A DNA stretch of 64,000 nucleotides from an uncultured Flavobacteriaceae bacterium (GTDB lineage Bacteria > Bacteroidota > Bacteroidia > Flavobacteriales > Flavobacteriaceae), in NCBI GenBank assembly GCA_947500445.1, contig CANMSB010000002.1:124001-188000 (forward strand). The letters are read 5' to 3'. The first letter of the stretch is position 1. Every line of letters starts with the position of its first letter. A program made the position numbers and the translations under genes. Below the pieces are notes generated by a model, which worked only from the letters and a program-made list of their open reading frames with translations, was not told where the DNA came from and made no database searches. Of this stretch, positions 46,215 to 64,000 are shown piece after piece.

Positions 46215-46329
46215 GGTACTTTTCGAGTTTTTGATAAAATCACTTTAGGATAAATGTAGGAGATTTTCGATTCAAAAGAAAGCTTACCGGATGTTTCTAC
46301 TTCATGTTGCTTCCTAAAAGTGCATCACC

Positions 46330-47957
46330 TTAATCTGACATATTTTTTGCCATTTTTAGCGCTTCAAAAGCGTTAATGACACCCCCACATCGAGAAAGTT
46401 CATTAAAACGTACCAAGGTATCGTTTACTTTAACAGGAGTATCATAGATTGTAGCCGTACTTAAAAGTATGTTTTTAATTTCTGCCGCCGTCAAGTCTGG
46501 ATAATACGACAAAACCATAGCGGCAACACCGCTAGTAACGGAAGCGGAAAGAGATGTGCCGTTTAAACTGAAGTATTTTCCCTCCGTAGGGTTGGTCGTT
46601 ATCATTTCCGCACCGGGCGCAAAAATATCAACATTGTTTTTACCGTAACACGAACGTGACCATTTCAGCGATTCGTTGGCAACCTTGTTGGCCGCCCCTA
46701 CCGAAATGAAGGTGTTTAGTCTTTCTCCGCTATCAAGTGAATATCCATTAGGATAGTTTACATTTTCTTTTATGTCGAGGTCCAAATTCTCGTTCCCTGC
46801 CGATGTAACGAAAAGGACATTGTTCTTATGGGCGTATTCTACCGCCTTAAAATAGCTTTCTTTATGTTCCAGATGATAGGTGCTAATACTGTAGTTTATA
46901 ATACGGGCACCATTATCGACTGCGTATTGCACGGCATTGATAAAGTCCTTGTCCCTTGGTGCCCCGATGGGCATTATTGATAATGGCATAAGCTTTATGT
47001 TGTTAGAGATACCTTTTATGCCGATACCGTTGTTTCTCTTTGCTGCAATTAAGCCAGAAGTTTGGGTTCCGTGCATCGACTTTCCTGAATTTCCCAAACC
47101 TTGTTATTCCCATATCCGTTATATGCTAGAACATCTGGGGAATCATCTATTTCAAGGTACGGATCATATGTTAAACTATTACTCAATAGCTTTTCCGAGT
47201 AAGCGATATCGATAAGATTGTTTATATCCTGAATGGTTATCTTATAGCGGGTTGCCATTTTAATGAAATCGATGGAATTTTGTAGTTCCGATGTATTGGA
47301 TACTTGTTGGGGTAAGCTTTCTATAAAGTCCGGGTTTTCAAAAGCACCGGGAAAGTCTTCAATGGCCTTGTAATAGTTATTTCTAAGTTCTGTAGCCCAT
47401 GCTATTGTTTTTTCCGCATTCTGTATGCCCTGTTTCATATTGTTTAACAAAACCGAGATGAGCATACTATCTTTCGTTTGCTTTCCTATTAAATCGGAAA
47501 CTTTTGATACGTTATACTTTTTCATCAAGCCCCGTAAAATTCTTACTGGTTGAAAGTTACCAACGGATATCGTTTTTCCGTTTCGGCTTCCTAAATAGTT
47601 CCAACCATGTATATCATCGATGTAGCCGTTATTATCATCGTCAATATTATTATTTGGGATTTCATTTGGATTTGTGTATACCATGTCGATCAACTCCTCG
47701 TGATAGATGTCCACTGGCGCATCGATGAGGGCAACTATGATTTCTGTCGGTTTCTGGGGTAGCTTGGATATATAGTAGGTAGCACTGTCCATGGCAATTC
47801 CCACCAGAGAATCCTTAGGGGAAGCCATATACCAATCCGTAAGTTCGGTATCGACATCGGAAAGGGTTTTGTTGTTTTGAAATGCTTGTTTTGCTTCGTT
47901 GTTTCGTGCACAACTGACAACTAAAAGAATAATGATGATGGGAAAATGAGCTTTCAC
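46330..47957 (-). pseudogene. S8-family lipoprotein protease (copy B) broken by a frameshift
   Basis: Two overlapping minus-strand frames make one S8 protein: an N-terminal part (47957-47049) with lipobox Cys16 (VVSC) and catalytic Asp79 in VALIDAPVDI, and a C-terminal part (47097-46330) with His in MHGTQTSG and Ser in NGTSLSAS. Restoring one base in the GTTTGGG run at about 47093-47100 joins them as GYGNNKVLGNSGKSMHGTQ, matching the paralogues. The shift falls just before the catalytic His, so the product would be inactive unless ribosomes slip. All catalytic residues are otherwise intact, so the mutation is recent or a sequencing error. Confidence 0.85.
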
Positions 47958-48027
47958 AATTTACTATAATCTATTCTGCACTTATTCATCTTTGTGAAAT
48001 GAAACAAAACCATGTTTGGGAAGAAAT

Positions 48028-49734: not shown

Positions 49735-49773
49735 TTTCAGCAGGCAATAGGGTTGTTTTCCTATTGGAACCAG

Positions 49774-51453
49774 TTAGTGCTCAGGAATAGCACTACGGTT
49801 TTTGTCCGATGCTCTAAACTGATCGGCTAACAAGATAGCGTTATGGGCGTTTACTATTGCACCTGATTTTGAAAGAGAGGAAAAAGGCGCAGTTTCCTTC
49901 TTTTTTTTACTAAGTGTGGGCATGGTATTGTAACGATTCCCTGAACTCATAATAATTTTCTTTACCTGCGTAGCGCTAAGAAACGGGTAGTAAGAGCGCA
50001 GAAGTGCGGCGATACCCGATACTATAGGTGCGGACATGGAAGTACCGGACGCAAAACTAAAACCACTGTGTCCGGAAGGAGCGTATATATCTACAGCTGG
50101 CGCAAGAATATCCACGTTCTCCTTACCGTAGTTGGAATTGTAGTATTTGAACCCTAATTCCGCTTGGTAGGTACTTCCGCCTACCATTATAAAATTTTGG
50201 GCAACTTCGTTGTGGATGTAGTCCGAATCGTTTGGAAAGTAGTTTTTGTTATCATCAATGTTAGTATTGGCGTTTCCCGCGCCGTTTACAATGAGCACAT
50301 CTTTTTCGGCCGCGTAGGCGATTGCTTCCAACAACCAGTTCTTATTGGTTGAAAACTCTTTGATTATGCTCATGTTAATTATTCTTGCACCGTTATCTAC
50401 CGCGTACCGGATGGCCAAGGCCAGGTCCTTATCGTGTGCTTGACCATAACAAGCAGCTACTATGGGCATAATTTTAAATTTGGCAGTTGCTGTTTTTGAG
50501 ATTTTAGGTGATGAAACGAATTTCAATATTGTTCCTGCGACCGGGGTTGCATGGTCGATAAAATCTTGATCGTAAGAAACAATGTTGTTTCCGTAGTCGG
50601 TGTCTCTTATGTTTGATGGGTCGTCTTTTGTAATCGCCCGTTCATCATAATTAAAATTGTAATAATATTTTCGGTAACGATTATGAATTTTCAGGTCTGC
50701 GATAGCGTCATCTATGCTATAGTCATGCTTTACGGCCCATTTTAAGGTTTCTATTTCTTTTGAAAGACTATCGGTCCGTTTCGCGATGCTATCTAATTTT
50801 TTTAAGGTCAGCTTAGGTCTGGGAACAATGTTTTCAAAAACGGCGACCGCTCTTTTAAGGTCTTCGGTATAGGTGCTGTCGCTAATAAAATACTCCTCTC
50901 GTTGTTTGGCCTTGTCCTTTAGGGTTTTTTTTGCTTTGCTGTAGTCCTCCTCGGTAAAATCTAGTTCACGCTTATTTTTACTGTTTTCATAATATTTGAC
51001 GATACGCGTAAACTCGAAATACTCATAAATTAGCCTATCCCCATTTTTATTCCCGATAAAGTTCCAACCATGCACATCGTCAACGTAGCCGTTTCCATCA
51101 TCGTCGATGTTATTGTTCGCGATTTCATTTTGGTTTTTCCAAAAGTTCTTAGTGATAGAAGGGTGTTTAGGGCTAATATCCGTGTCAATTACCGCGATGA
51201 TAATTTCCTCATTATGTTTTCCTTTTAAGCGTTCATGTGCCCGCTGTAGGCTTGTTCCCGGTACCGTGTCTTGACCGTAATCCATCAAATACCAAGTCTG
51301 TTTTTCTTTATCCGACAGGGCTACCTTCTTTTCAACAAATGGTACCGGCTTATTTAAATTCTTTGGTTGTTGGGCATTGCATCCTATTAAGCCCGTAATT
51401 AAAAAGTAAAAAAGAGACTTTACATTCATGATAATTGTACTGTGATGTTTCAA
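49774..51453 (-). CDS. S8-family lipoprotein protease (copy D) with variant His motif
   Basis: 559 residues by the ATG at 51453, or 551 from MNVKSLFYF at 51429, which gives a better signal peptide. Lipobox LIGC (Cys25 in the longer form). Triad: Asp90 (IAVIDTDIS), His301 in DHATPVAG, Ser472 in SGTSMSAP. The usual HGT around the catalytic His is HAT; the Gly-to-Ala change is rare in subtilases and could reduce activity. The segment following (TILKFVSSPKISKTATAKF) replaces the Asn-rich NNGIGIxG loop of other copies. Only 51 bp lie between it and the upstream S9 gene, so they are probably co-transcribed. Confidence 0.9.
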   Translation of the reverse strand: MKHHSTIIMNVKSLFYFLITGLIGCNAQQPKNLNKPVPFVEKKVALSDKEKQTWYLMDYGQDTVPGTSLQRAHERLKGKHNEEIIIAVIDTDISPKHPSITKNFWKNQNEIANNNIDDDGNGYVDDVHGWNFIGNKNGDRLIYEYFEFTRIVKYYENSKNKRELDFTEEDYSKAKKTLKDKAKQREEYFISDSTYTEDLKRAVAVFENIVPRPKLTLKKLDSIAKRTDSLSKEIETLKWAVKHDYSIDDAIADLKIHNRYRKYYYNFNYDERAITKDDPSNIRDTDYGNNIVSYDQDFIDHATPVAGTILKFVSSPKISKTATAKFKIMPIVAACYGQAHDKDLALAIRYAVDNGARIINMSIIKEFSTNKNWLLEAIAYAAEKDVLIVNGAGNANTNIDDNKNYFPNDSDYIHNEVAQNFIMVGGSTYQAELGFKYYNSNYGKENVDILAPAVDIYAPSGHSGFSFASGTSMSAPIVSGIAALLRSYYPFLSATQVKKIIMSSGNRYNTMPTLSKKKKETAPFSSLSKSGAIVNAHNAILLADQFRASDKNRSAIPEH

Positions 51454-51503
51454 AAATAGTATCGTTGAATCGCTTTACGTTATATTAATTCCCCCGTCCA
51501 TTT

Positions 51504-53651
51504 TTAATTGGGCTGAAAATCGGGATGTCCTGTTTGCCAAAGGGCAAAGGAAAGCATGTTGGCCAACTCCACGTTTTGTTTTTCTATTTTTACGGAAAGG
51601 CCATGTCCGCCCTTGGAATCTACAAAAAACAATATCGGCTTTCCCGAAGTAGATGCTTCCCGAATCCTAGCCGTAAACTTTCCGGCCTCCCAAGCATTTA
51701 CCCTTGCATCTTTTAAGCCCGCGGTTAGCAACATGGCAGGATAATCCGTGCCCTCCGTTATGTTATGGTAAGCATCCATTTCCAATAGCGCCTTAAATTC
51801 AATGGAATCTTTAACCGTTCCAAATTCTTTTACGTTGTTTGGTCCATTGGGGCCTGTTTCTGTCCTTACCGTATTTAGTGTGCCTACCCTTATCATGGCG
51901 CAACCATAGAGATCAGGCCTTTCGGTAACCGCCCTTCCTATTAAAATACCCCCGGCACTAGCGCTAAAAATAGCGATGTTCTGTGGCGAGGTGTATTTTT
52001 TTGCAATCAAATATTCCGTACAGGAAATAAAGTCTTTCCATGTGTTCGGTTTTGTGGTTTTAAAACCACCCTTGTACCAACCATCTCCTTTTTCCCCGCC
52101 GCCTCTCACATGTGCCACAGCATAAACGCCACCGTGTTGGATCCAATAAGGCATATATTTTTCAAGTTTGGGCCTATCCGAAATACCGTATGCGCCATAA
52201 CTGCTCAGCATTACCCTTTGTTTACCATCGAGCGTTGTCCCTTTTTTGTGTATTATGGAAAGCGGTATCATTTCGCCATCATGGGACAAAACTTCTACCT
52301 CTTCGACAACCAAGTCGGAAAGTTCTGCGCTTGAAGACCGTTCTTCAAAGGGTAATGGTTTAAAAGAACTGGATTCATGATCATACTTGAATAGGGTCTT
52401 TTTTAACGTCCACCCTTCCAGTTCGATCCAGAAGTCCCTAGAAAACTTTTCCTTTGTAATGATATTCAAATGCCCTGCGGTCATGGGCAATTTTATTTCT
52501 TTGGCACCAGTGTTGTCCAACAGAAAAAGACTGGTTTCTACACCGTTTCGCATTCTAGCGTACAAAATACCGTTTGAAATAAGTTTAAAATCCGTAAGTA
52601 CTAGGTTAGGGTCTTCCGGAACGACGATTTCCGGATTCTCAAAATCAGGTTCATGGACCGAAGTTTTACAAATTTTGAAGTTAGGGGCATTGTAAGCGGT
52701 CAAAAAATAGACCTCCTTGTCTTTAAGAAAAAACTGAGCGACCTTATGCTTTTTAGTAAATAGCCTTTTCCAGTTTTTTGCATCTTTTTTGGGACTAACA
52801 AAATAATCCGCATAAGGTCCCGGCCCCCAAATGCCCGCAAAAAGATAAGGGTCATCCGGATGTTGTAGATCCACCTCTGGGAAGTCTTCGGTATTAAACG
52901 GCAGTTCGGGATTGTTGGCCTTGGAAAGTATTATGTTCAAGTTTTTTGGGTCGCAGCCGATTTGGTATAATACCGTTTTGGTGTTCAGTAAATAACCCTT
53001 GTTTTTTTTATCGATAATTGGCATGTGCTCATAGGTAAAACCTTTTCCATCTTGCATCCAATGTACACCGCCCAATCCGTTGGGCCAACAGTGCGTTATG
53101 GTTTCCGGTAAAACTTTTTGGTTTTCTATATCGAAAATGCGCATTATCGAAACTCCCTCATCATCTTTGGTGAGGCCTATTACAACGTACGACGAATCCC
53201 AGTTTGGTTTGAAATAGTTTATGGTATAATTGTCGCCCATACTTTTTGGGCTTAAAATAAAGCGTTCCTTTTTATCCGCTGCAGGGCGATAAAACAACTC
53301 CTTGGTGTTTTCCGCTTTATTGATTTTTAAATAAAAATAGCCGCTCGTATGGGTAATGTATATGGATGAAATAGTGTTTTCATCTTGAAACTGATCGAGA
53401 TTTATCTGTTCGAACAGGGCATCTTTTTTTTTGATTTTCGACATTGCCGCATTGCCCGCCATCGTGTTTTTTGCGTACCAGTCTAAAACTGTTGAATCCG
53501 AAAGGTTTTCTAGGTAACGATAGGGGTCGTTTACTGGAGTTCCAAAATAGAAATCGGTAACGGTTTTTTTAGGAAGAGAAAGGCTATGTTGCTGAGCGTG
53601 GCAACAGATGAGGCCAAATAAGAGAACGGAGATACAGAATTTTATTGACAT
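51504..53651 (-). CDS. S9-family prolyl oligopeptidase, secreted (copy 2)
   Basis: 715 residues. Hydrophobic signal region with a Cys pair (LLFGLICCHAQQ), which may be a lipoprotein signal. N-terminal TDFYFGTPVNDPYRYLE, beta-propeller, then the hydrolase domain with Ser565 in FSASAGG (first Gly of the GxSxGG nucleophile motif replaced by Ser), Asp in AGLKDARVNAWE and His in KGGHGLS. The tail ALWQTGHPDFQPN matches copy 3 (60051) closely. It is followed 51 bp later by S8 copy D on the same strand. Substrate unknown. Confidence 0.92.
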   Translation of the reverse strand: MSIKFCISVLLFGLICCHAQQHSLSLPKKTVTDFYFGTPVNDPYRYLENLSDSTVLDWYAKNTMAGNAAMSKIKKKDALFEQINLDQFQDENTISSIYITHTSGYFYLKINKAENTKELFYRPAADKKERFILSPKSMGDNYTINYFKPNWDSSYVVIGLTKDDEGVSIMRIFDIENQKVLPETITHCWPNGLGGVHWMQDGKGFTYEHMPIIDKKNKGYLLNTKTVLYQIGCDPKNLNIILSKANNPELPFNTEDFPEVDLQHPDDPYLFAGIWGPGPYADYFVSPKKDAKNWKRLFTKKHKVAQFFLKDKEVYFLTAYNAPNFKICKTSVHEPDFENPEIVVPEDPNLVLTDFKLISNGILYARMRNGVETSLFLLDNTGAKEIKLPMTAGHLNIITKEKFSRDFWIELEGWTLKKTLFKYDHESSSFKPLPFEERSSSAELSDLVVEEVEVLSHDGEMIPLSIIHKKGTTLDGKQRVMLSSYGAYGISDRPKLEKYMPYWIQHGGVYAVAHVRGGGEKGDGWYKGGFKTTKPNTWKDFISCTEYLIAKKYTSPQNIAIFSASAGGILIGRAVTERPDLYGCAMIRVGTLNTVRTETGPNGPNNVKEFGTVKDSIEFKALLEMDAYHNITEGTDYPAMLLTAGLKDARVNAWEAGKFTARIREASTSGKPILFFVDSKGGHGLSVKIEKQNVELANMLSFALWQTGHPDFQPN

Positions 53652-53789
53652 ACTTGAAGGTTGGAAGGCTTTTATGGCGCCCCTGTCGTTTTTTTGCGAT
53701 AGGGCAAGAGCGTGATGACCTTTTCTAAATCAGCAATATGGGTTACATCATGTTTTCTGAGGAATTGAGGACTTCCCTCGTTGTATTTC

Positions 53790-54000
53790 AAAAGTAATAC
53801 AGAATCATCGATCTGTGGGTATGGGTCCGTACATTATACCAGAAATGGTATTATCACGTCGCCCAATAACTTTTCCAAATAGGCGATTTTAATAAGGTTG
53901 TTTATATCGGAGATCGATGTCTTTTAGGCTGTAGCTACTTTAATTGAATTAATTGGCTTTTGTAAGTTCGAACCGTAGAAGAGATAGAATGTTAGGTTTC
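53790..54000 (-). pseudogene. Decayed S8 protease fragment
   Basis: Reading leftward, the sequence gives a run matching the insert of S8 copy B: SDINNLIKIAYLEKLLGD against QDINNLIDIAYSEKLLSN, preceded by NSIKVATA followed by an in-frame TAA (copy B has NSIDFIKMATRY), and later DPYPQIDDS against DPYLEIDDS. Stops and frame breaks interrupt it. Downstream (53652-53790) a tail ending KKTTGAP remains open but is not recognised. The 414-bp gap between S8 copy E and S9 copy 2 is therefore the relic of another S8 gene. Confidence 0.75.
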
Positions 54001-54065
54001 GCTAACGGCGGAATCGTCAAAGGCTATGGTTATGCGTAAATGGTCTTTCAACCGGGAACCATGTT

Positions 54066-55709
54066 TTAATTTTCGGTTCGTTTCTCGGCCAGCAACAACG
54101 CATTGTACGCATTGACTATACGACCGGATTTCGAAATACTGGAAAAAGACACCATTTTTTCTTCCCCATCGTTTGAAAGCAGCACGTTACCGGCGTACCG
54201 CGTACCCGATTCCATTAGTATTGACTTTATTTCCTTTGCGCTAAAATTCGGATAGTGTGAGCGCAAAAGACCGGCAACCCCGGTAACTATAGGGGCGGCA
54301 AACGAGGTGCCGTCTACAAGCTCATAGGTATCGTTGCTTGAAGTGGTATAAATATTTTTTGCAGGCGCCATTATATCTACAGTTTCCGGCCCGTAATTGG
54401 ACTCCGTATACTTTAAGTTGTCATCTAAATGTTCTGTACTCCCACCTATCATTAGGAAGTTTTCAATAAATTCAGGTTCATGGTAATCAGTATCGTTAGG
54501 GTAGTGATTTTTTTCCTTATCAAGGTTTCTATTATCGTTGCCGGCCGCAGTAATAACCAATACGTCTTTTTTTGCTGCATACTTAAGCGCATCAAAGACC
54601 CACTGTTTATGTAAAGAAAATTCCTTGTTGATACTTATGTTTATAATTTTTGCGCCTTTATCGACAGCGTAGGTTATGGCCAATGCCAGGTCTTTATCGT
54701 GCGCTTCGCCGTTAACGGCCACCACTAAGGGAATAATCTTCACTTTTGGAACGATACCTGTTATGCCAACGCCATTTTCGGTATTGGAGGCAATTATTCC
54801 AGTTACATTGGTGCCATGGGAAATAGTATCTTTTACGTTGTCTATTCGGCCATTACCGTAGCCGATGTCCCCTAGGTCGTCGGAGTTATCCCCAATTGCT
54901 TGTCTTTCCTTGAATTCCGTAGCATAATACATATTCAATTGTCTTTTCCGAAACTCCAGATCCTCTTCTAAATCAGCGATATTCATATCGTAAAGTAAGG
55001 GAAGTTTCACAGCGTCAACCGCATCTTTTAAAGGGTTATCGCTTTCCGCGATCGAATCTAAAAGCGAAATAGAGGGTATCCGACCGTTTAAGTAGGATTT
55101 GATGGTTTCAAGACCCTTATAGTAGCTGTCGATAATAACCTTTCCCTGTTCTATAACGGACGTTATGGTATTTCTTTTTTTGTTCAATACCTTTTTTGCC
55201 CTTTTGTAAAGGAGATAGTTTGCTTTGTTTTCAGCGCTTAGTGTATCCGAGTTTCTATTAAAATAATCCTCATAGAACCTTACAACACGTACTACCTCGT
55301 AGTTTTGATATATGGGATTGGCACCGCCCGAACCCGCAAGATAGTTCCAACCATAAATATCGTCTACAAGCCCATTACCATCATCATCTAACTTATTGGC
55401 CTTCTCCTGTTCGTTGGTCCAAAAGACCGAATTCAAATCTTCATGTTCCAGATCAAAAGCGGTATCCAGTACTGCTATTACTATTGTATCCGATTTTTTA
55501 TCGGCGATAAACTCACGCGCTTTTTGCAAACTGATCCCGGGTGTCGCGTCAGTTTCCAAATCTAGAAGATACCATTGCTTTTTATCGATTTTGGTTTTTG
55601 GGATATGTTTGGTTTTGGATGGCTCAGAAACTAGTTGTTGTGCATTGATGTGGCAATTGAAGTATAAACACGATAGCACACCTAACATAAGAGACCTCAT
55701 TAACGTCAT
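54066..55709 (-). CDS. S8-family subtilisin-like secreted protease (copy E)
   Basis: 547 residues. Hydrophobic N-terminus (LMLGVLSCLYFNCHINAQQ) could be a Sec signal cleaved after NAQ or a lipobox variant. Triad: Asp82 (IAVLDTAFD), His298 (SHGTNVTG), Ser469 (DGTSFAAP). The block KLDDDGNGLVDDIYGWNYL replaces the common version, and a long charged insert follows. It is closest to copy D in the segment after the catalytic Ser (GLLRSHYP against ALLRSYYP). It lies 66 bp after copy F on the same strand. Confidence 0.9.
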   Translation of the reverse strand: MTLMRSLMLGVLSCLYFNCHINAQQLVSEPSKTKHIPKTKIDKKQWYLLDLETDATPGISLQKAREFIADKKSDTIVIAVLDTAFDLEHEDLNSVFWTNEQEKANKLDDDGNGLVDDIYGWNYLAGSGGANPIYQNYEVVRVVRFYEDYFNRNSDTLSAENKANYLLYKRAKKVLNKKRNTITSVIEQGKVIIDSYYKGLETIKSYLNGRIPSISLLDSIAESDNPLKDAVDAVKLPLLYDMNIADLEEDLEFRKRQLNMYYATEFKERQAIGDNSDDLGDIGYGNGRIDNVKDTISHGTNVTGIIASNTENGVGITGIVPKVKIIPLVVAVNGEAHDKDLALAITYAVDKGAKIINISINKEFSLHKQWVFDALKYAAKKDVLVITAAGNDNRNLDKEKNHYPNDTDYHEPEFIENFLMIGGSTEHLDDNLKYTESNYGPETVDIMAPAKNIYTTSSNDTYELVDGTSFAAPIVTGVAGLLRSHYPNFSAKEIKSILMESGTRYAGNVLLSNDGEEKMVSFSSISKSGRIVNAYNALLLAEKRTEN

Positions 55710-55775
55710 TTTAAGGGTCCGGTAAGGTAAAAATTATTTGCTTAGTTCGTTGAAAGTTCCAGTCTCACAATATCG

Positions 55776-57473
55776 TTATTTGCTTTTAGAAGCCATTTTT
55801 TTAGCCATTTTCATAGCGGAATAGGCATTTAAAACTTTTCCAGATTTTGATAGGTCTTTGAAGAGAACGCTATCTTTTTCCCTCGTACGAACCCTCAATG
55901 TATCGAAAGCCGTTCCGCTGGACATTATTACTTCCTTTACTTGTGTATGGCTTAATTGGGGGTAATGTGACCAAATAAGGGCGGCGACGCCGGAAGTAAG
56001 TGCACTTGATAAGGATGTTCCAGAATTTTCAATATATTGCTGCATTCGGGTATCAGTTGTTTTAATACCACTTCCCGGGGCGAAAAGATCGACATTTTCT
56101 TTTCCATAATTTGAGTAAAAGGCGAGCAACCCTTTTCCCAAGGATTTAGTACTTGCGCCGACTGATATTAAATTATCTACTGAATCCTCTCCATAGGTGT
56201 CGTTAAAATAGGTTCTGTTCTCAGGGATATCCAGGTTTTTTCCTTTATTTCCCGCCGAGGTGATAATTAAGACGCCATTTTTCTCCGCATATTTTAATGC
56301 ATAAAATAGCAGTTCTTCATTTTCGGTATATTCTTTGCTTCCACTTAAGTTGATTATTTTGGCTCCGTTATCAACTGCATACCTAACGGCATTCGAAAGG
56401 TCTTTATCGTTATAATGACCATATTCCGGACTAATGGTCAATGGCATTATTTTAATCCTATTGGATAGCCCACGTATCCCTATTCCATTATTTCTTGTGG
56501 CCGCTATGATACCTGAAACTTGTGTTCCGTGAAAAACATGGCTTTGTGCTTTTACATTTCCATTCCCATACCCCACAGTTTCTATATCTAATGGGTCGTC
56601 ACCTATTTTCGAACGTTCGTTGTAATTTAAGTTGTTACAGGTATAAATGTCAATTAAAGTATTCTCTTGGTCCCTATAAGTGTAATCAAAGGTGTACCCG
56701 TAGGAGATGTTTTTCTTCATTTGGGCTACTAGCCTTTCTTCATTCTCATTACGAATTTCAAGTGTATCTAACTGTGCTATGGTATAATCGTCATGGCCAG
56801 GTATTCTATCAGAAAATAACTTTATAAACTGATAAAACTCTTCCCGTACTTCTTTATCGGTTTCTAAATACGGTTGTTCCTTACTGTTTACACCGTTATA
56901 TTTTTCTAGGCAATATTGATAGAGTTTAAAATCTTGTAAATTGTCCGTACTTATTTCCGATAATTTTTTGCCTTCAAATTTCTTTCCAAATTTCCTTAAA
57001 ACCCTTACCTGCACAAAAGACGCATATCTTTCATATCCGTATTGTCCATAACCTAAAAAATTCCACCCGTTAACATCATCAACAAAACCGTTGTTGTCAT
57101 CGTCTTTTTGATTGTTGGCAATTTCTGTTTTATTCACATATATTTGATTTCTAAGGTCTTCATGGTCAATATCAATTTGGGTATCCATTACGGCTACAAT
57201 CACCTTTTCTCCGGCGTCCTCTAAATTTAATTCTCGGTAAGCCTTGTCCAAACTTATTCCAGATATGGAATCTATTTTTGGGTCTTCATGAATCCAAGAA
57301 CTATCTTCTTTTTTAGTATTTATTGGTAATGGTTGGGTACTCTTTTTACAAGAAACGAATCCAAAAAAAAGTAAAAAATAAAAGAGAATTACAAATAATC
57401 TCAGAGGATATTTACTAAGCAGCCTGATAACAGGCTGCTTTAAATTATTTTTCATACTAGCGTATCTATTCAT
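55776..57473 (-). CDS. S8-family subtilisin-like lipoprotein protease (copy F), first gene of the array
   Basis: 565 residues. Lipoprotein signal with Cys42 (FGFVSCKK) after a long basic lead (a start at MKNNLKQ, 57455, is possible). Triad: Asp97 (VAVMDTQID), His315 (FHGTQVSG), Ser487 (NSGTSLSSA). KDDDNNGFVDDVNGWNFLG and RNNGIGIRGLS are shared with copy B, suggesting B and F are the closest pair. The ATG at 57471-57473 overlaps the stop of the upstream GG-leader peptide frame (shared ATGAATAG), an arrangement expected of translational coupling between a precursor and its peptidase. It is more AT-rich than the flanks of the window. Confidence 0.9.
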   Translation of the reverse strand: MNRYASMKNNLKQPVIRLLSKYPLRLFVILFYFLLFFGFVSCKKSTQPLPINTKKEDSSWIHEDPKIDSISGISLDKAYRELNLEDAGEKVIVAVMDTQIDIDHEDLRNQIYVNKTEIANNQKDDDNNGFVDDVNGWNFLGYGQYGYERYASFVQVRVLRKFGKKFEGKKLSEISTDNLQDFKLYQYCLEKYNGVNSKEQPYLETDKEVREEFYQFIKLFSDRIPGHDDYTIAQLDTLEIRNENEERLVAQMKKNISYGYTFDYTYRDQENTLIDIYTCNNLNYNERSKIGDDPLDIETVGYGNGNVKAQSHVFHGTQVSGIIAATRNNGIGIRGLSNRIKIMPLTISPEYGHYNDKDLSNAVRYAVDNGAKIINLSGSKEYTENEELLFYALKYAEKNGVLIITSAGNKGKNLDIPENRTYFNDTYGEDSVDNLISVGASTKSLGKGLLAFYSNYGKENVDLFAPGSGIKTTDTRMQQYIENSGTSLSSALTSGVAALIWSHYPQLSHTQVKEVIMSSGTAFDTLRVRTREKDSVLFKDLSKSGKVLNAYSAMKMAKKMASKSK

Positions 57474-57621
57474 CTCTTACTCGACAATCTTTGGAGGTTA
57501 AAATCGCTGTTTCGTCATTTGTGCCAGCTCCTCCTAAAATGCTGTTGACTTTTGTAAATTTAGCAATTTCAAATTTTTTAATATGATATCCAGTACTGCC
57601 GATACTCTCGTATCTGATTTT
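57466..57621 (-). pseudogene. GG-leader RiPP precursor-like peptide lacking its start codon
   Basis: Minus-strand open frame of 51 codons bounded by TAA (57622-57624) and TAG (57466-57468). It contains KKFEIAKFTKVNSILGG followed by a 20-residue tail AGTNDETAILTSKDCRVRDE with Thr, Ser and one Cys. The leader aligns with that of the intact peptide at 59821 (KKFKIAKLDKPQLIFGGGG). There is no ATG, GTG or TTG in the frame; the region before KKF overlaps a fragment of an S8 gene, so recombination probably removed the original start. Its stop overlaps the start of S8 copy F. Initiation at ATT cannot be excluded. Confidence 0.65.
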
Positions 57622-57671
57622 TTATCGGCGATAAACCGAAGCGCTTTTTGCATACTGATGCTATTTTTTGG
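57588..57671 (-). pseudogene. S8 protease N-terminal fragment
   Basis: Minus-strand codons read ISMQKALRFIADKKSDTRV followed by SAVLD, clearly matching ISLQKAREFIADKKSDTIV and IAVLD of S8 copy E, ending at the catalytic-Asp position. The frame then runs out of phase with the adjacent peptide frame. It is a deletion junction between a former S8 gene and the GG-leader peptide gene. Confidence 0.75.
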
Positions 57672-58053
57672 CCATACAAATCGATGAAAACACAAAATAT
57701 TATACAGTCCCTTTGATTTAAAAGTAAAGAAATTCTTTTGGCTTCTTCTAGCTTCATTACTCTACTATGATGGCGTGCTTTTAGCTGCGTAATTCATATA
57801 GTTCAGAAGTAAAACCTGAAAATAGGACAGGACAGGTCATCTATCCTCTCATTTTAGCATGACTTTTGTAGGGTTTACAAATCGAAGTATTGGGGGGGGT
57901 TTTGGCTTGCACCAAATGAAGTTTAACTTTAAAAAAGAATTGATTCGTATTTTTTCTTTAAGGTTTTTAATCGTTTAACGTGAAATAAGTTTGTTTGTCG
58001 AAATAAATTTGAAATCTGAAAACCCTTTCATTCATTGTAAGTTTTAGAAAAAA
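57672..58053. promoter_or_regulatory. Divergent control region with a G8 tract
   Basis: Non-coding. A run of eight G lies at 57892-57899, about 155 bp before the regulator start. TAAATTTG at 58004-58011 fits a Bacteroidota -7 element for the regulator, though a well-spaced TTTG is missing. A 20-codon frame at 57918 is not called. The region separates the leftward protease array from the rightward RiPP genes and is the likely site of regulation for both. Confidence 0.45.
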
Positions 58054-59745
58054 ATGAAACTTTTTTTTATTGTTGTTTTTTTGATTGCTAATCTGTCGTT
58101 TGCGCAGGAGTTGGATGTTGAGAACTCCAAATTTTTAAATGAAGCATCTTTTGCTGAAATACACGAATTGATTAAAACTCAATATCAAGATTCTTTGTTA
58201 GCTGAAAATTATATCGATTTGTATTTAAAAAAAGCATCCCTTGAGAAAAATATGTTGGAATTAGGAAAAGCACTGACTTGGAAGAGCTATTACGAACCCA
58301 ATGAAAAACATAAACTCAAGCTAATCGATAGTGCTATCTCTTTAACAAAAGACCTAAATTCAGATTCGTACCCAATACTGACATATACATACAAAGGCGG
58401 ACATTATTTGGCCACCGGGCAATACGATAATGCGTTGAGTACATATTTAACCGCTTTGAAACTATCCAGAAAAAATAAAAGTGAGTATTTCGAGTATTTG
58501 ACTAAACATAATATTGCTATAATAAAAGGAGAGATTGGAGAAAATGAAGAGGCACTTGATATCTTCAAGGAGTGTCTCATTTATGAAAAGTCTAGATCCA
58601 ATGGAAAGACTACCATTGAATATATTGAATCTTTGTTGAAGACCGGCGAATTTTATATCAAAACAAGTAAATTGGATTCTGCAAAACTTCTATTAGATGA
58701 GGGTCTGGTTAAATCAAACTCACTTTTTAATGAACTTAACCTCAAAATTCAATTACAACTTGGTATTTACGCATATAAAAAGGGTAAAATTAGCCAAGCA
58801 AAGAAGATTTTATCAACAGGATTGCAAAAGACCAATTTAAAGCATCCCCATTTGACCAAAACGACAATACTGTTTCTCTTCTACCTTGGTCAAATAAATG
58901 AACTTCAAAATCATAGTAAAAAAGCGATGAACTACTATTTGCAGATGGATTCACTCGTTCAGCAACAACGTGTAAAGCCAATCGAAGTAAGAAATGCTTA
59001 TTCTTACTTAATTTCAAGATATAAAAGTAGCGGTGACATAGTGGAACAATTGTCAATTACAAATAAACTTATAGAAATTGATTCTTTTAATCTAGTCAGA
59101 GGCTTTAAAATATCTAAAATTATTAAGAACAAGTTCGACACTCCGATTCTATTACAACAAAAGGAGTCTTTGATAGAAACTCTCAATAGTCAAAACAAGA
59201 GGTTTAATTATGCCTTTGTAATTGTTTCTTTGTTGTTAATATCATTAGTTGTCATTGTATTTAGATTATTTTCTAGAAAGAGAATACTAGAAAGGAGGTT
59301 CAATCAAGTGATGAAAAGTAATGACATTAACAACAAAGAAACCAAAGCTTCAGCCAGAAAAGTAAATACAGATATACCGGAGATATTAGTAAAACGGGTT
59401 GCGGAAAGTCTCCAAAAATTTGAAAATAACTCAGGATATTTGAATAATGAATTGAGTTCAAACAAACTTGCAAAACTTGCAAATACAAATACAAAATACC
59501 TATCTATCATCATAAAACAGATTAAAGGCAAATCTTATTCCAACTATATCAAAGATTTGAGAATAGATTATGCTATCAGCGAATTAAAGATAAACGCAGA
59601 CCTAAGAAGAAATTATAGTATCGAAGGAATCTCAAAAGAAATGGGATTTAACAACGTTGAATCTTTCTCTTTGGCTTTCAAAAAAAAGACTGGTTTAAAC
59701 CCATCTTATTTCATAAAAAAAATAGAAAATCAATCTAAATTCTAG
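58054..59745 (+). CDS. Membrane-anchored TPR / AraC-type transcriptional regulator
   Basis: 563 residues. Signal peptide (1-17, LSFAQ), an extracytoplasmic TPR-like helical repeat region (about 40-340; for example TYKGGHYLATGQYDNALSTY), one TM helix (about 383-403, FVIVSLLLISLVVIVFRLF), then a cytoplasmic AraC-type DNA-binding domain (about 450-557; YLSIIIKQIKGKSYSNYI, SIEGISKEMGFNNVESFSLAF, KTGLNPSYF). This one-protein sensor layout is widespread in Bacteroidota. It is divergent from the S8/S9 array and 75 bp before the small precursor gene, so it probably senses an envelope or peptide signal and controls one or both. Low GC content like its neighbours. Confidence 0.9.
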   Translation: MKLFFIVVFLIANLSFAQELDVENSKFLNEASFAEIHELIKTQYQDSLLAENYIDLYLKKASLEKNMLELGKALTWKSYYEPNEKHKLKLIDSAISLTKDLNSDSYPILTYTYKGGHYLATGQYDNALSTYLTALKLSRKNKSEYFEYLTKHNIAIIKGEIGENEEALDIFKECLIYEKSRSNGKTTIEYIESLLKTGEFYIKTSKLDSAKLLLDEGLVKSNSLFNELNLKIQLQLGIYAYKKGKISQAKKILSTGLQKTNLKHPHLTKTTILFLFYLGQINELQNHSKKAMNYYLQMDSLVQQQRVKPIEVRNAYSYLISRYKSSGDIVEQLSITNKLIEIDSFNLVRGFKISKIIKNKFDTPILLQQKESLIETLNSQNKRFNYAFVIVSLLLISLVVIVFRLFSRKRILERRFNQVMKSNDINNKETKASARKVNTDIPEILVKRVAESLQKFENNSGYLNNELSSNKLAKLANTNTKYLSIIIKQIKGKSYSNYIKDLRIDYAISELKINADLRRNYSIEGISKEMGFNNVESFSLAFKKKTGLNPSYFIKKIENQSKF

Positions 59746-59820
59746 AATTTAGGGCTTTAATACAAATGGGATAACCTAATTATTCGGAAATTGAAAACTT
59801 AATCGAAAAACCTTTTAAAG

Positions 59821-59961
59821 ATGAAAAAAAAGAAAGAATCAAAGAATGTAAGACCTTACTTAAAAAAGTTTAAAATAGCTAAACTCGACAAGCCACAACT
59901 AATCTTTGGCGGAGGGGGTAAAACCGAGGTAGTTATGTTATGCGGCCACACTGGTGGTTGA
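59821..59961 (+). CDS. GG-leader RiPP (lanthipeptide-like) precursor peptide
   Basis: 46 codons, ATG to TGA. Lys-rich start MKKKKESKNVRPYL, then leader motif KKFKIAKLDKPQLIFGGGG and a putative core KTEVVMLCGHTGG. The pattern KKxKIxKLxKxxL...GG matches Bacteroidota GG-leader natural product precursors. The core has two Thr and one Cys, the minimum for a single (methyl)lanthionine ring. It sits between the regulator and an S9 oligopeptidase, with a LanC cyclase gene next. The related but startless sequence upstream of S8 copy F supports the assignment. No precursor family could be confirmed without a search. Confidence 0.75.
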   Translation: MKKKKESKNVRPYLKKFKIAKLDKPQLIFGGGGKTEVVMLCGHTGG

Positions 59962-59989
59962 ACTAAGAATTGGTAAAATATGATAATAC

Positions 59990-60035
59990 AAGGTATAGAA
60001 GACCTTATCTAAAGGTAAAAAGTCATCTATACCTT
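59990..60035 (+). promoter_or_regulatory. Hairpin between precursor and S9 gene
   Basis: A perfect 10-bp stem (59990-59999 with 60026-60035, AAGGTATAGA/TCTATACCTT) encloses a second small stem (ACCTT/AAGGT, about 60002-60016). It lacks a T tract, so it could act as an mRNA processing or stability element, or as an attenuator giving more precursor than enzyme. Confidence 0.5.
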
Positions 60036-60050
60036 TAAGCCTTATGGACA

Positions 60051-62210
60051 ATGTTGAAAACATGCATATTATTTTTTGCTTTTTTTTTATTTAAAGTAGG
60101 TTTTACACAGGAAAAAATTAATTATCCCTCTTATAAAAAAGGCAACTTTAAGGAAGAGATTCACAATATTGTGGTTTCTGACCCATACCGTGGATTAGAA
60201 AATCTGAAAGAGCCAGAAACTCAAAGTTGGTTTAAGAGTCAAAGCTTTCTTGCCGATAGTCTACTCGAAATGGTACCTAAGGAAAGGTTTTTAAAAAAGT
60301 TTTTAGCTTTTGAGAATTCCCAAAAAAATCTTGTCAGAACCTATCGAATAAAAGAAAATGGCAACTACTTTTATTTGAAAAAGAATGATGATGGTGTAGA
60401 AAAATTATTTTTAAGAAGAGACAAACATAGTCAAGAAACCTTGTTGTTTGATCCGGAAGCATATCGAAAAGGACATTTTATTCGTTATTACAAGGTAAGT
60501 TGGGACGGTCTTAAAGTGGCAATAGCTATTTCTAAGAAAGGTGAAAAGGAAAGCTTGGTAGTAGTTTATGATGTTAACCTAGAAGGGCTTCTTGAGGATG
60601 TGGTTGAGGACTTAAGTCCGGGCCATGCAGGAAACTTATCTTGGTTTCCGAATAATATGGGTTTTTTTTATACGAAAGTGCCCCATTTTAGGTATGATGA
60701 TAAAACCTATTTATTGGAAACTGAAGCCAGTTATCACCTAATTGGAGAACATAAAAAACAACGCACAATTTTTTCTAAGAATAATAATCCAACTATTCCA
60801 TTTCAGAAAGGAGATATCGCAACTATTTTAATTTCAAATTCAAGCACTTCTTATCTTATTGGAACACTTTCCAATACAAATGACCATCATGATGTTTACT
60901 ATGCTAAAATCAACTCTTCCAATAACTACGATAACATTGAATGGTTACCCTTGTTTACGAAGAAGGAACAAATAGTTCAGTTTTTCATCAAAGAAGATTT
61001 TCTGTTTTTTCGAACATCAAAAGGTGCTTCAAGATATAAAATATGTAAGACTTTGCTTAAAAATCCAAATTTCAACAACCCTGAAGTTTTGATCTCAGAA
61101 CGGGATGATTCAGTTATATCCGATTTTGAGTGCCTAGATGGCAAAGTCTTTTTTACAATTAGAAAGAACGGGGTAAAATCTAAATTCTTTGTAAAAGAAA
61201 AAGACTCGGAAACTGAAATAAAATTACCTTTTTCCGCCGGCGAGACCAGTGTTTTTTCAGAGGGTAAAAAGTTATTTGTAAAGGTTAATGGCTGGACGGT
61301 ACCCACTAGCTATTTTCAATATGATTATGGGAAAGGTATCTTAACCAATGTTAGTTTGGATAACGGCTCCTATCCAGAATTTGAGCAAATAGTTGTTGAA
61401 GAAATTGAAGTAAAATCTCATGATGGGGCATTGGTTCCAGTTTCAATACTTAGAAAAAAGGAACTTAAAAAAAATGGAAAAAGCAGAGCAATGCTTTACA
61501 CCTACGGTGCATATGGTATTTCATATTCTCCGAGGTTTTTTATTCCTTTTGTCACTTGGGTTTCTGAAGGTGGGGTTTTAGTATTCCCACACGTAAGGGG
61601 TGGTGGTGAAAAGGGAAACTCTTGGTATGAACAAGGCAAGAAAGAGACAAAAGCTAATACTTGGTTAGATTTAATTGCTACAGCTGATTATTTGATTGAA
61701 AATAACTACACTTCGAAAAGATATCTTATAAACCTTGGGATAAGTGCCGGAGGAATAGCGGTAGGAAGGGCAATCACTGAACGACCAGATTTATTTAAGG
61801 TAGCTATTATGGATTCTCCCGCTCTTAATATGGTCAGATATGAGTTTCAGCCAAGTGGCCCAAATAATGTTCCAGAATTTGGAACAATCAAAGATTCAAC
61901 CCAGTTCCAGGCGTTATACGAAATGGATTCTTACCATCATCTGGAAACAGATGTTGAATACCCATCGATTATGGTAAAAGTGGGTATGAAAGATGGCAGC
62001 GTTACGCCTTGGGATTCTGCCAAATTTATCGCAAAAGCGCAAAACATGACGATTCCCACAAACCCCGTACTGTTCTCAGTGGACTTTCAAGGTGGTCATG
62101 TCGGGGATGGTACCGTTGAAGGTATATATAGAAACTTTTCTGAGTTGTATGCTTTTGCATTATGGCAAACAGGACATCCTGAATTTCAGCCAAAAATGAG
62201 AAATAGATAA
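60051..62210 (+). CDS. S9-family prolyl oligopeptidase (copy 3), RiPP operon
   Basis: 719 residues. Signal peptide (about 1-19, KVGFTQ). POP N-terminal HNIVVSDPYRGLENL, a beta-propeller, then the hydrolase domain with Ser565 in LGISAGG, Asp in VGMKDGSVTPWD and His in FQGGHVGDG. The tail ALWQTGHPEFQPK pairs it with copy 2. Encoded 89 bp after the precursor and 9 bp before the LanC gene, so it is a strong candidate for processing the modified peptide, in analogy to the POP-type peptidase FlaP of class III lanthipeptides. That role is inferred, not seen. Confidence 0.92.
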   Translation: MLKTCILFFAFFLFKVGFTQEKINYPSYKKGNFKEEIHNIVVSDPYRGLENLKEPETQSWFKSQSFLADSLLEMVPKERFLKKFLAFENSQKNLVRTYRIKENGNYFYLKKNDDGVEKLFLRRDKHSQETLLFDPEAYRKGHFIRYYKVSWDGLKVAIAISKKGEKESLVVVYDVNLEGLLEDVVEDLSPGHAGNLSWFPNNMGFFYTKVPHFRYDDKTYLLETEASYHLIGEHKKQRTIFSKNNNPTIPFQKGDIATILISNSSTSYLIGTLSNTNDHHDVYYAKINSSNNYDNIEWLPLFTKKEQIVQFFIKEDFLFFRTSKGASRYKICKTLLKNPNFNNPEVLISERDDSVISDFECLDGKVFFTIRKNGVKSKFFVKEKDSETEIKLPFSAGETSVFSEGKKLFVKVNGWTVPTSYFQYDYGKGILTNVSLDNGSYPEFEQIVVEEIEVKSHDGALVPVSILRKKELKKNGKSRAMLYTYGAYGISYSPRFFIPFVTWVSEGGVLVFPHVRGGGEKGNSWYEQGKKETKANTWLDLIATADYLIENNYTSKRYLINLGISAGGIAVGRAITERPDLFKVAIMDSPALNMVRYEFQPSGPNNVPEFGTIKDSTQFQALYEMDSYHHLETDVEYPSIMVKVGMKDGSVTPWDSAKFIAKAQNMTIPTNPVLFSVDFQGGHVGDGTVEGIYRNFSELYAFALWQTGHPEFQPKMRNR

Positions 62211-62219
62211 AATTCCGAT

Positions 62220-63437
62220 TTGAGTTCAATTAAAGCGAGTTTGGAAAAAAAACTCCACGATTTCAACAATGATTTAACCTGTAATCTAGATAAATGTACA
62301 GAAATAGGGCTTTTATCCGGAAAAATGGGCGTTGCTTTATTTTTTTACTACTACTCCATGTATTTTAAAGAATATACCGTTAAAAATAAAGGTTCTTTCT
62401 TGTTGGAAGAAATATGTGAATGTATAAACACCGGATTTAATATTCCCACTTTTTGTAGTGGAATTAGCGGTATTGGATGGGGGATGGATATCCTGAATGA
62501 GGAAGGCTTAGAAGATATCGACACTAACTACTTGTTTTCCGATATGAAACAATATGTTAGTGATTCTTTAAATTTTTTCTTTAAAAAAAACAAATATGAC
62601 TTTTTACATGGATACCTCGGAGTCGGGTTTTTTTTATTAAACAGGTTGAATTATCCAAATTCTTCTGACATGCAGTCATTCTATATAAAAAAGTTAGAAG
62701 AAGTTATTGCAAAATTAAATACCACCGCCGTAATCCTCGAGAACCAAGCTTACTGGGTTATAAGCAAGGAAGAAAAAGAGGAATCAGAAATAAATCTTAG
62801 CCTTTCACATGGAATGGCAAGCATAATAAATTTTCTGTCACGTGTTAACTCTTCACCTTATTTTAAAGGACAAGTTGTTACTTTATTAAATAAAGCTTGT
62901 CGCTTTTTAATCTCTATCAAGCATATACCCAAAAGTGAGGATTCTTATTATGGCAATCACATATTTCTAGATAAGTTTGAGAAAAAAAACTCCAGGTTGG
63001 CTTGGTGTTACGGAGATTTAGGAATTGGAATCTCTTTATGGCACGCCGCTATTTCTATTAATGACAAAAACCTATTTAAAGAGGCTATGCTTATTTTAAA
63101 ACACTCGGCCAATAGAAGAGACACCAGTAGTACCTTAGTAAAAGATGGAGGTTTATGTCACGGAGCTTTTGGAGTGATGCATATTTTCGATTTTTTATAC
63201 AAAAAGACAGGTGTAAAAGACTTTAAAAATGCCTCTGAATTTTGGTTGCTAACTGGATTGGAAACTGGATACCATGAAAATGGCTTGTCAGGATTTTTAT
63301 CATGGAATCCGGATGAAAATGGAATTTGGAAAGTAGAAGTAGATATTCTTGATGGAATCTCTGGAATAGGCCTTGCCATAATCTCATATTTATTTCCAAA
63401 AGAACTTAAGTGGAATAAATGCCTTTTGATAGGATGA
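62220..63437 (+). CDS. LanC-like lanthionine cyclase
   Basis: 405 residues from a TTG start; an upstream in-frame TAA excludes an earlier one. The double-barrel LanC repeats are seen as FCSGISGIGWG, FLHGYLGVGFFLL, LSHGMASIINFL, WCYGDLGIGISLW, LCHGAFGVMHIF and ILDGISGIGLAIISYL. Zinc ligands are Cys263 (WCYG), Cys313 and His314 (LCHG); the conserved acid/base His is at about 197. This matches the NisC arrangement (Cys284, Cys330, His331). LanC joins Cys to dehydrated Ser/Thr to make thioether rings and normally works with a LanB dehydratase. No LanB is in the window. Confidence 0.92.
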   Translation: MSSIKASLEKKLHDFNNDLTCNLDKCTEIGLLSGKMGVALFFYYYSMYFKEYTVKNKGSFLLEEICECINTGFNIPTFCSGISGIGWGMDILNEEGLEDIDTNYLFSDMKQYVSDSLNFFFKKNKYDFLHGYLGVGFFLLNRLNYPNSSDMQSFYIKKLEEVIAKLNTTAVILENQAYWVISKEEKEESEINLSLSHGMASIINFLSRVNSSPYFKGQVVTLLNKACRFLISIKHIPKSEDSYYGNHIFLDKFEKKNSRLAWCYGDLGIGISLWHAAISINDKNLFKEAMLILKHSANRRDTSSTLVKDGGLCHGAFGVMHIFDFLYKKTGVKDFKNASEFWLLTGLETGYHENGLSGFLSWNPDENGIWKVEVDILDGISGIGLAIISYLFPKELKWNKCLLIG

Positions 63438-63450
63438 CGGAGTGATTTTT

Positions 63451-63497
63451 TAAGCCTTTTCCTGAAAACTCACTGAAAAATCAATGGTTAAGGCTTA
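63451..63497 (+). terminator. Possible terminator hairpin after the LanC gene
   Basis: Arms TAAGCCTT (63451-63458) and AAGGCTTA (63490-63497) form an 8-bp stem with a long AT-rich loop. No run of T follows, so it is a weak terminator at best. Confidence 0.3.
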
Positions 63498-63540
63498 GGC
63501 GCACATTCAGGTTTCTCCGATGAAGCTCTAACGGAGTAGC

Positions 63541-63566
63541 GGGGTCTGTAAATTAAACTCTGTCCG
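63541..63566. mobile_element. IS256-type terminal inverted repeat
   Basis: The GGGGTCTGTAAATTAAACTC sequence at 63541 lies at the C-terminal end of the transposase gene and has the GGGxCTGTAAA form of IS256-family ends. It marks the left boundary of the insertion. The other end is outside the window. Confidence 0.6.
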
Positions 63567-64000
63567 TTGATTCGATTCCTTTGGGGCTAGCCCCAAAGGA
63601 ATCGGCGTTTAATGCCAGTGGTATTCTATCCCCAAATTTAATATAAAGTTGTTGAACGGTAAGGCTCCAATTGTGCAAAGGGCTTGTCCATTTCTTCTCG
63701 ATGTTCTTTGTGGCCAGATATACCAGTTTTAATAGGGCCATATCGTTTGTGAAGGCACCCTTGGTCTTGGTGACCTTGCGTACTTGGCGGTGGAAGCCCT
63801 CCACGGCATTGGTGGTATAGATGATCTTCCTGATTGGCTCGGTGTACTGGAAATACTGGGACAGTTGCTCCTAATTACGCTGCCAGCTCTCGATGACCAC
63901 GGGGTATTTTCCTTCCCATTTTTCTTCCAGGTCCAATAGTCTGTCCTCGGCCACTTCCTTGCTCGTGGCCCGATAGACAAGTTTCAGGTCGCGCATGAAC
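63553..64000 (-). pseudogene. IS256-family (mutator-type) transposase, C-terminal part, interrupted by a stop
   Basis: The minus strand reads in one frame from the window edge: FMRDLKLVYRATSKEVAED, then EEKWEGKYPVVIESWQRN, a TAG (complement of 63871-63873), then EQLSQYFQYTEPIRKIIYTT, NAVEGFHRQVRKVTKTKG and IEKKWTSPLHNW. This is the conserved C-terminal region of IS256 transposases, where a Trp (WEQL) is normally found in place of the TAG, so TGG to TAG is the simplest explanation. The N-terminal DDE parts are outside the window. Probably inactive. Confidence 0.85.
63573..63604. repeat. Perfect 32-bp palindrome in the IS end
   Basis: Sixteen-base arms centred on CTAG (CGATTCCTTTGGGGCT and its exact complement) with no loop. 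It lies inside the last codons of the transposase frame and next to the terminal repeat. It may block transcription across the element boundary. Confidence 0.6.

Follow-up and report, generated by a model that had tools for sequence, protein, structure and literature searches.

The stretch of DNA analysed here, a window of 64,000 nucleotides from an uncultured Flavobacteriaceae bacterium (positions 124001-188000 of contig C2 in genome G000, a 5.18 Mb draft of 177 contigs that is 99.8% complete), contains near its end four consecutive genes for a regulator with tetratricopeptide repeats and an AraC-type DNA-binding domain (TPR-AraC), a 46-residue peptide with a double-glycine (GG) leader, a prolyl oligopeptidase (POP) of family S9, here termed POP3, and a LanC-type cyclase. 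On a slight balance of probability, we interpret these genes (positions 58054-63437) as a satellite class I lanthipeptide-like operon that relies on a dehydratase, LanB, supplied in trans. The short gaps between the four genes suggest transcription as a single operon, likely headed by the regulator gene directly upstream of the precursor. In the proposed pathway, the precursor, whose reading frame is backed by conservation, would be made in the cytoplasm, and the one split LanB of the genome, whose genes lie on contig C15, would dehydrate its core threonines. The LanC of the operon would then link the core cysteine to a dehydrated threonine, yielding one methyllanthionine ring, and an exporter composed of a C39 peptidase-ATP-binding cassette protein (C39-ABC) and HlyD, encoded either close to the operon or in the LanB hub, would cut the peptide at the GG motif and export it. 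Outside the cytoplasm, POP3 would trim the peptide after export, a role that would fall to S8 or S15 peptidases in related cassettes, and the TPR-AraC protein would regulate the operon, perhaps by sensing the product. The chemistry of this product, including any lanthionine or methyllanthionine, is predicted from the genes.

The initial annotation of this region had described a 46-codon open reading frame (ORF) with a leader ending in GGGG and a 13-residue core containing Thr and Cys. This description holds: GGGG occupies residues 30-33 and is followed by the 13-residue tail KTEVVMLCGHTGG with two Thr and one Cys, giving the combination of leader and Ser/Thr- and Cys-containing core expected of a class I precursor. 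Judged by its conservation, the ORF is genuine. A profile of 37 related peptides, none of them from the window's genus, ranked it first among the 842 window ORFs of 20-150 aa (37.7 bits, E = 7.6e-11; runner-up 6.1 bits, E = 0.56), and the best of 2000 shuffled versions of the peptide reached 12.0 bits, with the reservation of a mild circularity, as most of the 37 training peptides had been gathered with a ten-sequence profile that contained the window peptide. A single-sequence search of 299 genomes of the family returned 13 genomes, its own included, at E ≤ 0.1, with values below 0.001 outside its own genome only in G077 (2.2e-4) and G123 (8.0e-4). In these two genomes, and in the more weakly matching G050 and G085, the gene for the matching peptide immediately follows that of a TPR-AraC protein and precedes that of an S8 or S9 peptidase. 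Apart from these four cassettes, the 12 matches in other genomes comprise one LanC-linked precursor (G288), three peptides around which the region read shows no cassette (G058, G071, G188) and four matches within long open frames (G075, G078, G084, G129).

The ten-peptide profile (A1), which has the window peptide and that of G050 among its seeds, matched 39 of 395 genomes of the order at E ≤ 0.01, the two seed genomes counted. It gave 57 matches, for which 40 regions, some with more than one match, were fetched (L098-L137); 11 matches lie outside this set (G394, G405:C38, three in G566, G360, two in G316, one in G496 and two in G335). Known precursor families were rejected for the window peptide: the comparison with precursor models that the initial annotation had suggested came back empty, with no Pfam or NCBIfam match at E ≤ 1. 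This includes the NCBIfam model for class I lanthipeptide leaders, NF038153 (curated cut-off 22 bits), which three of nine related precursors pass (23.8, 25.1 and 22.8 bits). The empty family searches and the sparse single-sequence matches below 0.001 (two other genomes of 299) are what one would expect of a chance ORF lying beside unrelated peptidase and LanC genes. The leave-out profile, the shuffles and the conserved operon described below speak against this explanation, which we reject at the level of sequence conservation and consider extremely improbable.

The same four genes occur in the same order in a congener, G667 (locus L162), again with no LanB beside the operon. The two operons share 52% identity in TPR-AraC, 56-57% in the POP and 48% in LanC, and the G667 precursor MKVKKKLSLKKFKIAKLNNPQNIFGGETVQDCGGGTKSEPAALCNDDTNGNG, which scores 5.4e-15 in the 37-peptide profile, ends in ...GGGTKSEPAALCNDDTNGNG and has, by eye, an LC position in common with the window core. 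The alignment of the two leaders covers 19 codons, with 7 identities, 8 synonymous and 4 nonsynonymous differences. POP3 and the G667 POP group together in the POP tree at 100/100, apart from two further POPs of the window (POP1 and POP2), and the LanC of the G667 operon is the nearest row to the window LanC in the LanC tree (48%). The initial annotation had tied its case to the small frame being kept in relatives that retain the S9 and LanC genes; in the only such relative found, G667, it is kept. Its description of the two enzymes can likewise be upheld. The gene after the precursor encodes a POP-type S9 peptidase (Pfam S9_N/S9), whose Ser, Asp and His align with residues of 2BKL that we take to be the catalytic residues of POP. 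The last gene encodes a LanC-like protein (PF05147), whose WCYG and CHG motifs align with 8BYK, so that, by motif alignment, it appears to possess the intact Cys, Cys and His that presumably act as zinc ligands.

What the operon lacks is the LanB expected in a class I gene cluster. A PF04738 search of the whole genome detected one LanB_N only, on contig C15, adjoining genes for LanB_C, C39-ABC and an HlyD-type protein; neither the window operon nor the rest of its contig gave a match. Without a dehydratase, the operon cannot form lanthionine alone, and with the genome's only LanB pair located on another contig, dehydration, if any, would have to occur in trans. G000 and G667 resemble each other also in this respect, each having exactly one LanB_N, on a contig other than that of the operon. 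Their LanB loci are syntenic (C39-ABC 85%, HlyD 72% and LanB_N 57% identity), with that of G667 additionally encoding a LanC and two GG peptides that contain Cys. In a tree of 46 LanB_N proteins, restricted to those of 600-900 aa and thus excluding full-length LanBs (L057, L104, L136) and broken pieces (L112, L125), all 15 rows with a LanC neighbour and the C15 LanB fall on one side of a 100/99 branch, with the other 30 outside. The window operon probably uses this LanC-partnered type of LanB in trans. Two more LanC loci of the same genome, on contigs C40 (L005 9100-10299, 13359-13571) and C31 (L006 9602-10810, 10975-11184), each contain one Cys-rich GG precursor and no LanB within the 17-19 kb read; a single LanB hub supplying several satellite loci would be the economical reading.

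The proposed ring-forming step is suggested by the intact ligand motifs of LanC and by the Cys kept in both LanC-bearing operons. Alternatively, the product could be linear, with LanC forming no ring and, for instance, binding or protecting the peptide. The single Cys of the window peptide would fit this explanation, as would the distribution of LanC-like proteins: a whole-genome search of 35 genomes encoding related peptides detected them in 15 but not in the other 20, all of them 99-100% complete (the 39 profile-match genomes minus G335, G360, G517, G315, G316, G436 and G566, plus G085, G123 and G077), indicating that the wider family can manage without cyclisation. However, the ligand motifs, the Cys in both LanC-bearing operons and the grouping of the genome's own LanB with LanC-partnered LanBs argue against a linear product here, which we regard as quite unlikely.

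The precursor also shows the hallmarks of a double-glycine peptide: its leader ends in GG, and a C39-ABC exporter is encoded in the vicinity, past a transposon beyond the end of the window; cleavage at this site is predicted. POP3 has a signal-like N-terminus (by eye) and is probably secreted. Based on this N-terminus, the GG motif and the nearby C39-ABC, we infer that the exporter cuts the GG leader and that POP3 is more likely to be a second-step trimmer than the leader peptidase. The initial annotation had proposed a lanthipeptide-like pathway with a POP as leader peptidase. A conserved RiPP-like (ribosomally synthesized and post-translationally modified peptide) operon with POP and LanC, as seen also in G667, remains of this proposal, whereas the locus has no dehydratase and the POP would more likely act later. 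The upstream TPR-AraC gene, the signal-like N-terminus of POP3, the missing LanB and, beyond the window, the C39 exporter had not been part of it. Comparable exporters are found near cassettes of the wider family, with C39-ABC proteins 59-76% identical to that near the window operon in L113, L119, L181, L217, L231, L232 and L235 and an HlyD 60% identical in L062, making eight exporter-bearing cassette loci, but L119 and L217 look like one contig.

Table 1. Features of the operon and its surroundings (window positions; positions beyond 64000 are window-equivalent).
Feature	Position	Strand	Evidence or remarks
TPR-AraC regulator, 563 aa	58054-59745	+	Pfam HTH_18 3.1e-11, TPR_12 8.1e-8
46-codon precursor ORF, ATG start	59821-59961	+	MKKKKESKNVRPYLKKFKIAKLDKPQLIFGGGGKTEVVMLCGHTGG
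Precursor leader, residues 1-31, up to first GG	59821-59913	+	37-peptide profile 7.6e-11 for whole ORF
Precursor core GGKTEVVMLCGHTGG (2 Thr, 1 Cys)	59914-59958	+	Boundary putative, cut anywhere within GGGG
Prolyl oligopeptidase, family S9 (POP3), 719 aa	60051-62210	+	Pfam S9_N 2.2e-41, S9 7e-39
LanC cyclase, 405 aa, TTG start	62220-63437	+	PF05147 1.3e-35
Transposon copy, Mutator/IS256-type transposase, frame-disrupted	63547-64000, on to 64875 past window end	-	PF00872 2.4e-74, in pieces
HlyD, outside window	65136-66305		Domain search
C39-ABC exporter, outside window	67030-69243 (L004 4030-6243)		PF03412 3.4e-36
Second-precursor remnant ...YHIKKFEIAKFTKVNSILGGAGTNDETAILTSKDCRVRDE, directly upstream of S8 gene	57466-57618	-	37-peptide profile 2.8e-7
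Peptidase array: five full-length S8, one split S8, two POPs	41935-57473	-	Pfam S8/S9

The surroundings of the operon (Table 1) combine related genes with signs of decay. The peptidases of the upstream array are of the same kinds as those beside the precursors of relatives and are candidates for acting on the window precursor. One of them, S8c, is 48% identical to the S8 beside the precursor in L058, and POP2 groups with the POPs of L059 and POP1 with that of L170, on long branches. The S8 gene at 46330-47957 (-) is broken up into two frames (46330-47097 and 47049-47957) that overlap. The precursor remnant scores 1e-7 with a profile containing the window peptide, and its 5' part resembles, by eye, a piece of an S8 gene. 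A further S8 subtilase gene lies downstream of the window (L004 9662-11296, -), and tandem S8 pairs or triplets are likewise present in L101, L114 and L133. The transposon, bounded by inverted repeats (L004 547-564 and 1858-1875, window-equivalent 63547 and 64875), sits between the operon and the HlyD and C39-ABC genes. A search of positions 57000-64000 for structured RNA gave no Rfam match at gathering scores.

Several observations weigh against the proposed satellite pathway. The exact operon was found in only one other genome, G667, and is absent from the regions read in 13 other LanC-matching genomes of the family, one of which (L054 in G177) has LanC and POP genes end to end at a contig edge. 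That the C15 LanB accepts the window leader is an assumption. The transposon separates the exporter from the operon, and in G667 (L162) LanC is not followed by an exporter gene. The window core contains no Pro, although this residue occurs in 20 of the 22 POP-linked cores and in all 10 S8-linked cores, and this difference from other POP-linked cores makes the substrate of POP3 uncertain. A GG peptide lies beside only three of the six TPR-AraC genes in G667, and one of these three peptides matches only weakly (E = 0.09); this makes the sensing step less secure. In addition, the TTG start of LanC and the decaying neighbourhood, with its split S8, precursor remnant and transposon, make a partial loss of function possible. 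In an alternative explanation, the operon is a relic, which lost its own LanB and whose precursor is no longer modified, with POP and LanC either kept for other reasons or decaying. Such a history would agree with a LanB present on C15 only, with the transposon beside LanC and with the split S8 and precursor remnant nearby. However, G667 has the same LanB-less operon with intact frames at about 50% identity, the active-site residues of POP3 and LanC are intact, and 15 of the 19 leader codons are unchanged or synonymous relative to G667. We therefore judge a relic to be rather unlikely and prefer a satellite operon that draws on LanB in trans.

The regulator of this satellite operon combines a signal-like N-terminus, a TPR region, a hydrophobic segment around residues 385-405 (N-terminus and segment recognized by eye) and a C-terminal AraC helix-turn-helix (HTH) domain. 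It is the sole full-length match in its own genome, where a further 14 matches are confined to the C-terminal part, and matches at E ≤ 1e-20 occur in three of ten genomes of the window's genus, its own included. When a profile of 45 TPR-AraC proteins was compared with the PDB, RapF scored 5.7e-13 and NprR-type entries 4.2e-8 to 2.9e-7; generic or engineered TPR proteins scored more strongly (best 1.4e-26). Like the RRNPP receptors Rap and NprR, the window regulator is a TPR protein encoded beside a small peptide gene, but it differs from them in its AraC HTH domain and apparent membrane segment, with sensing being putative. It is tempting to speculate that the TPR-AraC protein senses the product of the operon. 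A strict pairing of each TPR-AraC gene with a GG peptide is not supported, given the three of six pairs in G667.

The gene content of the window operon links it to a wider family of cassettes, which usually have their own split LanB and mostly lack LanC. In 36 of the 40 fetched loci, a TPR-AraC gene lies no more than 700 bp from a profile match, and in 34 of these the slot next to the precursor is occupied by a peptidase gene (S9 in 21, S8 in nine, S15 in four); the exceptions are L122, which is cut by the contig end, and L137, which has no peptidase. In the four S15 loci (L110, L115, L118, L124), the slot holds an X-Pro dipeptidyl-peptidase-like protein, and the linked cores do not start with X-Pro. 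A LanB_N lies within 6 kb in 26 of the 36 TPR-AraC loci and is missing from 10. Two loci stand out by their tandem precursors: L137 (3604-6959, -) contains 19 short GG-leader peptides, many of them near-identical, by a TPR-AraC gene 42% identical to that of the window, and L104 (14410-15674, +) contains five near-identical GG precursors of the GGITCSTAGSTIIIKDQVS type, followed by a LanB-like ORF of 1025 aa. A scan of named genomes with LanC-less LanBs gave, for the best 80 of 535 matches, 79 loci, of which 48 are in Chryseobacterium, a share biased by the first query row coming from that genus, and the others in Aquimarina, Kordia, Sinomicrobium and other genera. In 44 of these 79 loci (43 in Chryseobacterium), TPR-AraC, an adjacent peptide, a POP (35) or S15 peptidase (9) and LanB are present with no LanC within 4 kb; 19 have a LanC, and the remaining 16 are truncated at a contig end or missing at least one part. 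These locus counts are not independent, since several loci share a genome and the named loci with LanC-less LanBs overlap unnamed ones. A single-sequence scan of the named genome contigs returned no named relatives of the window LanC. The window operon has in common with the cassettes a TPR-AraC gene adjoining one GG peptide and a serine peptidase gene, that of POP3, adjoining the peptide; an own split LanB without LanC is found neither here nor in the G667 operon, as both operons have LanC and no LanB. A hybrid arrangement, in which the regulator, peptide and peptidase of the family are combined with LanC in the place of LanB, is thus seen in two species.

The cores of the family are short of cysteines. 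Of 37 cores (retained from 48 rows after dropping L114, L129, L137, L116_7360, two each from L041 and L042 and three from L047), 14 are Cys-free, 21 have one Cys and two have more, so that the single-Cys core, which had seemed unusual in the initial annotation, is typical of its relatives (zero or one Cys in 35 of 37). All 37 contain Thr, the commonest residues being G, D, T and N, and only 15 have two or more Ser. A Cys-x6-Ser motif (CANGDDGS, CAFPDNAS and similar) recurs in nine cores (L100, L102, L103, L105, L109, L112, L116, L117, L128) and is found also in genomes without LanC (G487, G558). LanB was present in all 38 genomes searched, and the LanBs of LanC-less cassettes fall outside the LanC-partnered clade of the LanB_N tree. 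In the LanC-less pair of L098, LanB_N aligns to residues 39-693 of NisB and LanB_C to residues 733-987. Of the LanB_N rows listed, only L103, L105 and L117 gave no match to an R..R.TPFG motif, and the LanB_C rows listed contain Y..E..RY and H..NR, which we take to be residues with a role in elimination; the pattern RY.D...H.R.R missed many rows.

For the LanC-less cassettes, a pyritide- or thiopeptide-like product, with LanB_C acting as a [4+2] cyclase rather than as an eliminase, must also be considered. Such products are characterized by several Ser that form dehydroalanine, or by a YcaO protein for azoles. Neither feature applies to the window operon, whose core has no Ser and whose genome is one of 22 searched for YcaO without a match, compared with matches in five of 14 control genomes. 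LanB-family enzymes without LanC or precursor Cys are known for pyritides, as far as the source was consulted (PMC11002830). Nevertheless, the cassettes among the loci read typically have one LanB_C each, the LanB_C rows listed keep both elimination motifs and, as stated above, only a minority of the cores contain two or more Ser and YcaO was detected in none of the 22 genomes, making this alternative very improbable. As a tentative and rather doubtful proposal, the cassettes could represent a RiPP class that is new relative to the literature searched. Its short, often Cys-free GG-leader peptides would be dehydrated by LanB without a cyclase, trimmed outside the cytoplasm by a dedicated serine peptidase of family S9, S8 or S15 and sensed by the neighbouring membrane TPR-AraC protein, and would serve in Flavobacteriales as linear dehydropeptide pheromones. 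On this view, a branch with LanC in the place of LanB, dependent on a shared LanB hub, would be represented by the window operon.

Several known systems share parts of this organization, according to the portions of the sources consulted. The class I lanthipeptides of Bacteroidota (pinensin and relatives, with an LxLxKx5L leader) have in common with the window operon the leader type, the GG site, the C39 exporter, LanC and a split LanB (PMC7268733), but the window operon differs in its external LanB, its POP and TPR-AraC regulator, its single Cys and a leader missed by the NCBIfam model. An S9 POP is encoded in lanthipeptide clusters also in the case of FlaP (flavipeptin) and LanPB (family III 3), both class III (PMC10885120, PMC7268733), whereas POP3 has a signal-like N-terminus and is accompanied by a GG leader, a nearby C39 exporter and class I-like enzymes. 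A two-step scheme, in which a C39 protease cuts at GG or a similar site and an extracellular serine protease follows, is described for lichenicidin (LicT/LicP), cytolysin (CylB/CylA) and mersacidin (MrsT with AprE) (PMC10885120; for AprE, PMC8581636). In contrast to these class II systems, which pair a peptidase-containing ATP-binding cassette transporter with a protease, the peptidase slot of the window family can be S9, S8 or S15, and both cuts are predictions. Pyritides and pearlins share with the LanC-less cassettes LanB-family enzymes without a cyclase and precursors with few or no Cys (PMC11002830), but both LanB halves of the cassettes keep the motifs of eliminating LanBs, and their peptidase and TPR-AraC partners are distinct. 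We did not find the cassette in the accessible parts of the open-access PMC literature, including PMC7268733, PMC9993889, PMC9248904, PMC10885120, PMC11002830, PMC10352776 and PMC3091789, with subscription literature outside the search and an earlier description there possible; PMC12181424 makes no mention of the terms sought. A large survey of lanthipeptides, in the parts consulted, used LanC as the anchor of its mining and excluded ORFs whose core has no Cys (Walker 2020, PMC7268733), and a LanB family without LanC would thus have escaped it.

Collectively, the window operon provides an example of a LanC, a peptidase and a precursor placed apart from their dehydratase. The wider cassette, in turn, raises two questions: what a complete split LanB produces in genomes without LanC and YcaO, and what keeps the gene of a TPR regulator linked to that of a peptide and to that of a serine peptidase from one of three families.

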